Shown here: positions 35,600-36,192 of the stretch, one piece after another
Layout of the letters: each line of letters starts with the position of its first letter
How positions within the stretch are numbered: the stretch's first letter is position 1
Virus record (IMG/VR): IMGVR_UViG_3300046003_003352
Span: 1-37,523 of that record
Direction: 5' to 3' (one strand)
DNA length: 37,523 nt
Origin: a virus
Program-made: the position numbers and the translations under genes
The notes under the pieces: model-generated
Database searches by the model: none
Seen by the model: the letters and a program-made list of their open reading frames with translations, nothing else
What the model was told of the DNA's origin: nothing

Positions 35600-35801
35600 A
35601 AGGTTTATATATTTATATGTCTAGGCTCTTATGCATATAACGTGTTATACGGTTATCTGCTGCGTGTATTACTTAAGTTATGTGTTTGACTGTACATACG
35701 ACAATTAGTTTCTTCTAATCTTGTTAACCCTATTTCGAGTTAACTCACTATGTGGGATATAAAGTTCCAAAAAATGGGGAAAATTTTTAGTGACCGACCT
35801 T

Positions 35802-35850
35802 TTTATCCCATAAAGTGGGATAAAGAGTTTGGGCTTGTTTATCCCACTTT
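35802..35850. promoter_or_regulatory. Clustered TTTATCCCA / TGGGATAAA inverted repeats
   Basis: TTTATCCCA (35802-35810) faces TGGGATAAA (35816-35824). AAAGTGGGATAAA (35812-35824) faces TTTATCCCACTTT (35838-35850), a perfect 13-bp inverted repeat with a 13-bp gap. A related TGGGATATAAAG lies at 35753. Two alternative pairings share the middle copy. It looks like an operator array or a replication-protein binding site. Confidence 0.75.
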
Positions 35851-35958
35851 GTGTGGTGAAAAGTTTTGGGAATTGGTTGGAATTTAAGCGGACCCTGGAT
35901 GGCCCAGACTCTGAACCAGAACCAGAAAGCCTATGGCGTCTAGCTTGGCAGTGAAAAA

Positions 35959-36010
35959 CAGAACCAGAACCAGAACCAGAACCAGAACCAGAACCAGAAC
36001 CAGAACCAGA
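35959..36010. repeat. Hexamer tandem array (CAGAAC)n
   Basis: Eight exact CAGAAC units (35959-36006) plus CAGA. A shorter related stretch is at 35911-35926. It is complementary in orientation to the 12-bp array beyond: GAACCAGAGC (36003-36012) pairs with GCTCTGGTTC starting at 36058. Confidence 0.95.
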
Positions 36011-36012
36011 GC

Positions 36013-36034
36013 TAAACTGTATAAACTGTTTATA
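36013..36034. repeat. 22-bp direct repeat, copy 1
   Basis: Identical to 36133-36154. It includes the palindrome TATAAACTGTTTATA (36020-36034) and directly follows the hexamer array. A diverged copy with the same ACTGTTTATA core occurs at about 36312-36333. Confidence 0.9.
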
Positions 36035-36050
36035 TTGTTTATATGATTAT

Positions 36051-36130
36051 GGTTCATGCTCTGGTTCATGCTCTGGTTCATGCTCTGGTTCATGCTCTGG
36101 TTCATGCTCTGGTTCATGCTCTGGTTCATG
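36051..36130. repeat. 12-bp tandem array (GGTTCATGCTCT)n
   Basis: Six perfect units (36051-36122) and a partial seventh GGTTCATG. Exact copies in phase and immediately followed by the second 22-bp repeat after two bases. Iteron-like in form; it can also fold against the hexamer array. Confidence 0.95.
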
Positions 36131-36132
36131 AT

Positions 36133-36154
36133 TAAACTGTATAAACTGTTTATA
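36133..36154. repeat. 22-bp direct repeat, copy 2
   Basis: Exact second copy of 36013-36034, 120 bp away, so each array ends in the same element. The palindrome is at 36140-36154. Confidence 0.9.
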
Positions 36155-36192
36155 CTATTTCGGCGTTTTTTGGGTATGGCTCAGGCTTGCAT

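Follow-up and report, generated by a model that had tools for sequence, protein, structure and literature searches.

At the pac site of phage P1, clusters of hexanucleotide repeats flank a centre that lies near the terminase genes. In the CtrA-site ('LPEG') phages of Alphaproteobacteria, both the binding of a host regulator and regulation by it have been shown experimentally (PMC9437464), and in type Ib partition systems small RHH proteins, such as omega of pSM19035 and ParB of pCXC100, act on tandem short repeats and repress their own promoters (PMC5016525). We describe here a repeat-rich control region in a 37,523-bp IMG/VR virus record, the whole of which is referred to as the window, and compare its tandem 9-bp palindromes with the promoters of a family of cellular RHH-like genes and with the arrays of other phages.

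Gene context of the control region

A search of the window for end repeats found none. Behind a terminase operon come the structural genes, encoded on the minus strand. The operon, on the same strand, includes a gpA-type terminase large subunit (TerL, 32021-33712), a 138-aa ORF without a family match (33709-34125), and a gene for a 357-aa HTH protein (34122-35195). The place of the 138-aa ORF between the HTH gene and TerL, in a gene order conserved in contig L078 and prophage L083 (see below), makes it a small-terminase candidate. The next gene, again on the minus strand (35265-35534), encodes an 89-aa RHH (Arc-like) protein; its second half matches an Arc-like profile, the first half resembles a second RHH, and the predicted structure is of low confidence (pLDDT 55). 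A similar design is seen in other RHH-like proteins that adjoin terminase genes, in that those of L005 (143-478 and 653-1006), L078 (500-892) and L083 (8502-8828), like that of the window, look like two RHH units per chain. A pattern search for relatives of the window RHH and HTH proteins found none.

The far side of the control region is formed by a divergent Ala-rich ORF on the plus strand (36641-37411), and all of the repeats listed in the initial annotation lie in the 1.1-kb gap between this ORF and the RHH gene. GCC is strongly enriched on one strand from 36580 to 37523, with 79 GCC and 11 GGC in the Ala-rich ORF, and the enrichment extends beyond the ORF. We note two further features of the record: a 99-bp tandem repeat of 7.4 copies (11183-11918) within a 1587-aa minus-strand ORF (7561-12324), and a GIY-YIG endonuclease gene on the plus strand (16955-17749) amid the minus-strand structural operon.

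Repeats of the control region

The 13-bp inverted repeat, the eight CAGAAC units, the two copies of a 22-bp element and the seven 12-bp iterons reported in the initial annotation are all present where it placed them, and are far beyond chance. Nearest to the RHH gene are GTGGGATA/TATCCCAC inverted repeats (35751-35853), which include the 13-bp perfect inverted repeat AAAGTGGGATAAA (35812-35824) and TTTATCCCACTTT (35838-35850). A hexamer array of CAGAAC follows on the plus strand (8.7 copies, 35959-36010), with eight consecutive units starting from 35959 to 36001, and a shorter run at 35913-35927, with one more unit at 35917. The 12-bp array of TGGTTCATGCTC (6.8 copies, plus strand, 36050-36130) contains seven copies of GGTTCATG, spaced exactly 12 bp apart (36051-36130). 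The hexamer array and the 12-bp array are mutually inverted, as had been observed, and the core CTGGTT/AACCAG is the only sequence they have in common.

The 22-bp element, TAAACTGTATAAACTGTTTATA, is exact at 36013 and 36133, but its composition requires correction: it is built of head-to-tail 9-bp palindromic units, AWACNGTWT, two to three in tandem, and three such units make the 27-bp palindrome AAACNGTATAAACNGTTTATACNGTTT. Array 1 (AAACTGTAT AAACTGTTT ATATTGTTT, 36014-36040) and array 2 (AAACTGTAT AAACTGTTT ATACTATTT, 36134-36160) each match this palindrome at 23/24. The unit pattern also reveals a third, partial cluster that had been missed (36293-36332), consisting of a lone unit, TAACTGTAT (36293-36301), followed by AAACTGTTT ATACTGTTT (36315-36332); there are no comparable 9-bp arrays elsewhere in the record. 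Seven perfect units and three perfect doublets lie between 35700 and 36650, whereas 20,000 first-order Markov simulations gave 0.1 units on average and not one doublet; chance is excluded for the 22-bp element. A LexA box (CTGT-N8-ACAG) was rejected for the array as its spacing differs, and matches of the array to Klebsiella umuD are LexA-type look-alikes. We found no mention of the 9-bp site in the literature searched, and a BLAST comparison of the repeat region with named phages and plasmids was uninformative.

A replication origin, a partition-like site and a regulatory switch had all been suggested for this region. An origin with iterons is consistent with the AT-rich direct repeats that flank the 12-bp tandem array, and with the strong strand folding of the inverted arrays (z -7.6; 0/200 shuffles), although cumulative GC skew, the check proposed with that suggestion, has no extremum tied to the arrays, and the flanking ORFs include no initiator or other replication gene. 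Most of the base variation within the 9-bp arrays is at the N and W positions (30, 22 and 26, with 19 for all of the fixed positions together). This pattern, although in part a product of construction, speaks against slippage as the source of these arrays. We regard either account, an origin or slippage noise, as highly improbable. The regulatory switch is the best supported of the three suggestions, because this is a divergent intergenic control region with an RHH gene and a terminase operon next to it, and because operators matching the 22-bp element are found in the promoters of a cellular RHH-like family.

The KTGRP proteins and their promoters

An exact 20-mer search of genome contigs gave a sole match, in rpoN of Massilia terrae, which led us to a gene of the family referred to here as KTGRP in the same genome. 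The rpoN gene of this GC-rich genome contains a two-unit site (L006:3820-3841) in which AT-rich codons are used. From weak array matches in plasmids we were led to small genes without annotation, which adjoin the array or directly follow it, in Paraburkholderia, Calothrix, Piscirickettsia and Comamonas. The products align, with invariant residues in the C-terminal domain ('RDSFT.P ... KSE..RAG ... K.GR'). KTGRP proteins have a Lys/Ala-rich N-terminal tail, which is long in members such as that of Massilia, and a C-terminal RHH-like domain ('VRDSFTMP...KKSELLRAGL...KTGRPxK'). Pfam, PHROGs and NCBIfam models gave no match at cut-off or at a meaningful level, and there is weak similarity to ParD-type RHH antitoxins (E 0.2-0.5); as judged from their sequences, these are probably RHH proteins. 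In the Burkholderiales the family is chromosomal and present in 15/60 genomes. The genes near KTGRP include ppx, sixA, CHAD and phoU, and in two genomes the KTGRP gene lies between ppx and sixA/ppk-type genes.

The array is associated with the promoters of these genes. The strict three-unit array is found in only 2/399 Burkholderiales genomes, both copies being in the promoter of a KTGRP gene with ppx on one side and sixA/ppk-type genes on the other, and in none of 299 Pseudomonadota genomes. Two-unit sites with at most one mismatch number one or two per 3-5 Mb in six of seven KTGRP-bearing genomes examined, with one always beside the KTGRP gene; M. terrae is the exception, with 11 such sites. 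At 20/24 KTGRP genes the upstream sequence holds an array that outscores shuffles (p<0.05), as it does at 17/20 when those ascertained by the motif are left out, counts that can only have been lowered by the misassignment of some start codons by the script (L007, L018). The 27-bp palindrome scores 15-24/24 at KTGRP promoters (L040 23, L039 24) and 13-16 in controls. The window has the tandem AWACNGTWT units forming this palindrome, twice at 23/24; no KTGRP gene was found just downstream or elsewhere in the record, and we therefore class the window array as an operator-like site and not as a KTGRP locus.

The plasmid members raise the question of partition, in that they have a parA neighbour with an array between the two genes (Piscirickettsia L009, Calothrix L008), and type Ib RHH centromere proteins bind tandem direct repeats (PMC5016525). 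The phage arrays could then be centromere-like (parS) sites that recruit a plasmid or host ParA/RHH-ParB machine and so stabilise an episomal phage, such as a phage-plasmid or inovirus. We consider this unlikely, as chromosomal and most megaplasmid KTGRP genes are without a ParA neighbour, the arrays also occur in phages with lytic relatives (those with T5-like and Ss1-like terminases), and there is no ParA (PF13614) match in L002-L005 or in the window record, itself a fragment. An RHH gene does adjoin the repeats of the window, but it is not a KTGRP gene. The partition-like site is not borne out, its link being an indirect one through the plasmid members beside parA.

The same array in other viruses

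At least three perfect tandem units (the strict three-unit pattern) are present in 18 IMG/VR contigs, where fewer than about 0.3 would be expected by chance, an estimate that assumes a collection of ∼60 Gb of AT-rich sequence; array-side sequence is identical in two pairs among the 18. Most of the viral arrays are intergenic. L003, L023/L035, L027, L031, L032, L037 and L033/L036 have the array immediately before TerS/TerL, L024 has it ∼0.9 kb upstream of these genes, and in the inoviruses L002 and L034 it follows zot directly. Besides the inoviruses, the contigs include unrelated types with T5-like terminases (L003, L024, L027), Ss1/VA-RY-3-like terminases (L031, L032, L037) or others (L023/L035, L033/L036). 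The KTGRP-type site is enriched in the intergenic control region of unrelated phages, as is seen with host-regulator sites. The 27-bp palindrome scores 20-24/24 in phages, and the array of phage L032 is identical to the L039 operator, one of the two strict Burkholderiales copies, over all 27 bases. Phage arrays are ∼135-480 bp from start codons, whereas the cellular operators are mostly 15-60 bp upstream, a difference that counts against the operator reading. No array was found near the terminase in named, cultured relatives of the T5-like and Ss1-like types, from the gammaproteobacterial hosts Vibrio and Cronobacter.

Two arrays were set aside as chance or unrelated, that of L004 because it is within coding sequence and that of L029 because it is a different repeat inside an ORF. 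L003 also has a separate tandem array of ATAACCTGTGG units (1215-1373), ∼650 bp from its 9-bp array. The five identical units of L022 may have grown by slippage, and growth of a tandem period in this way can count against the operator reading.

A KTGRP gene was not matched in any of 19 array-bearing virus records, the window record among them, and a search of viral contigs for the family was empty, albeit in a weak test, a single divergent sequence having been used for confirmation. As all of the virus records are fragments, the protein could be encoded outside them.

The positions of the arrays invite two further explanations. One is a packaging (pac or cos) recognition site for the small terminase, given that repeats precede the terminase operon in the window and in both L078 and L083, and that 9-bp arrays precede the terminase genes of several other phages and follow zot in inoviruses. 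However, filamentous and tailed phages use unrelated packaging machines, packaging in related phages of other hosts proceeds without arrays, and the 9-bp arrays match the operators of a cellular gene unrelated to packaging; such a role is quite improbable. The other is a decoy that titrates the host KTGRP protein, and thereby derepresses its target or neutralises a silencing function. The 11 consecutive perfect units of L031 and L032 are beyond the need of a simple operator, and cellular genomes carry only one or two sites; most phages, though, hold just three units, in a fixed intergenic control position, and there are few cellular target genes. We consider a decoy very unlikely.

Hexamer, 12-mer and inverted repeats

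The initial annotation looked to conservation of the arrays in related phages, failing which, and with replication starting elsewhere, they would be slippage noise, and here the outcome is divided. Unrelated phages also have the 9-bp arrays. The hexamer and 12-mer arrays, by contrast, are shared with relatives in kind and position, their sequences not being conserved. The pattern of the 12-mer array is absent from other viral contigs. Contig L078, with a TerL 71% identical to that of the window, starts within repeats, an 18-bp array and an array of the hexamer CCACGA (15.5 copies), just before an RHH gene and terminase operon. Prophage L083, in a Burkholderiales genome, is the closest cellular relative of the window terminase (TerL 62% identity), and there a divergent Ala-rich gene is followed by 7.2 copies of a 13-bp repeat, an RHH-like gene, and then HTH and terminase genes. 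As far as these sequences indicate, the stretch from the divergent gene to the RHH gene keeps the kind and position of its simple tandem array but not the array's sequence. A hexamer in L079 was not counted as analogous, as it lies inside a divergent ORF. The 9-bp array is absent from L083, and L078 and L005 end too near for it to be judged there. Two KTGRP genes are present in the genome in which L083 resides, as against a family frequency of 15/60 genomes, and an array-like region precedes one of them.

An 81-aa minus-strand ORF (35884-36129; MNQS, then LV repeats) runs through both simple arrays of the window, but we do not claim that they are coding, because periods that are multiples of three make an open frame expected, and the ORF is without a clear ribosome site. 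We note that both here and in L078 (5-313) each repeat unit contains a start codon, and an open frame crosses the array in the direction of the RHH gene.

The hexamer, 12-mer and GTGGGATA repeats are a layer separate from the 9-bp arrays. One explanation of the whole locus would be that the hexamer, 12-mer or 22-bp repeats bind the phage's own RHH protein (35265-35534), as its operator or centromere. An RHH gene with a tandem array recurs in L078 and L083, the array sequence varying as the protein varies. The 22-bp element, on the other hand, is of a type that serves KTGRP genes, and the phages sharing this array have no detectable RHH_1 match, albeit in an insensitive search that misses the window RHH protein too. 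As an account of the locus this is improbable; for the hexamer, 12-mer and GTGGGATA repeats taken separately, an operator or centromere of the phage's own RHH protein is the best reading. The GTGGGATA/TATCCCAC inverted repeats are a candidate operator of the adjacent RHH gene, and they and the simple arrays may together serve its product. Slippage is still a likely account of the simple 6- and 12-bp arrays.

A possible operator for a host-encoded protein

Our preferred reading, in which we have moderate confidence, is that the 22-bp elements are cis-acting operator arrays for a host-encoded RHH protein, placed in a divergent early/late control region. At the level of sequence, the array is associated with KTGRP promoters and recurs in unrelated phages beside terminase or zot genes, where no KTGRP gene is detectable. 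The following model supposes the RHH fold, the binding, a host of the window phage that has a KTGRP protein, and the direction in which transcription is regulated. One RHH dimer would probably cover each 9-bp palindrome, AWACNGTWT, and three consecutive units, as a 27-bp palindrome, would be bound cooperatively. The cognate protein would probably be a chromosomal or plasmid KTGRP member of the host, and not phage-encoded; as KTGRP promoters carry the same array, the family would presumably be autoregulated. With its three clusters in the gap that separates the terminase (late) operon from the opposite operon, the phage would let the host protein bind its main control region, and the protein would probably repress or time early or late transcription there.

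The model gives the uncharacterised KTGRP family a predicted DNA site and a mode of autoregulation, and links it to phages without a detectable copy of its gene. If binding is confirmed, the exploitation of host-regulator sites, which has to date been demonstrated for CtrA in Alphaproteobacteria, would be known in a further host group and in filamentous phages as well. A broader proposal, which we offer tentatively and consider rather doubtful, is that unrelated tailed and filamentous phages of betaproteobacteria independently acquired arrays for a host RHH nucleoprotein from the ppx/ppk (polyphosphate) neighbourhood, so sensing host phosphate or starvation to time their late genes. This would be a second system of 'lytic deferment' beside CtrA.

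Comparison with described systems

Like P1 pac, the window has hexamer repeats near terminase genes; unlike it, the repeat sequence is not conserved among relatives, and a packaging role is a candidate only. Type Ib sites share with the arrays their tandem short repeats, and plasmid KTGRP genes adjoin parA, but the phage records hold arrays without a ParA or RHH partner, and chromosomal KTGRP members are ParA-free. KTGRP proteins resemble AlgP and other histone-H1-like polyphosphate-associated proteins (PMC9239181) in their basic Ala/Lys-rich tail and in the nearness of their genes to ppx, sixA, CHAD and phoU. They differ in having an RHH-like C-terminal domain with a defined operator.

The most evident parallel is to the CtrA-site phages (PMC9437464), in which clusters of host-regulator-type sites, direct repeats included, likewise lie in a large intergenic region between divergent operons and have evolved independently in unrelated phages. 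The present phages differ from these in their host group, in the uncharacterised RHH-like protein and in the tandem palindromic form of the array, and binding, shown for CtrA, is here a prediction from sequence.
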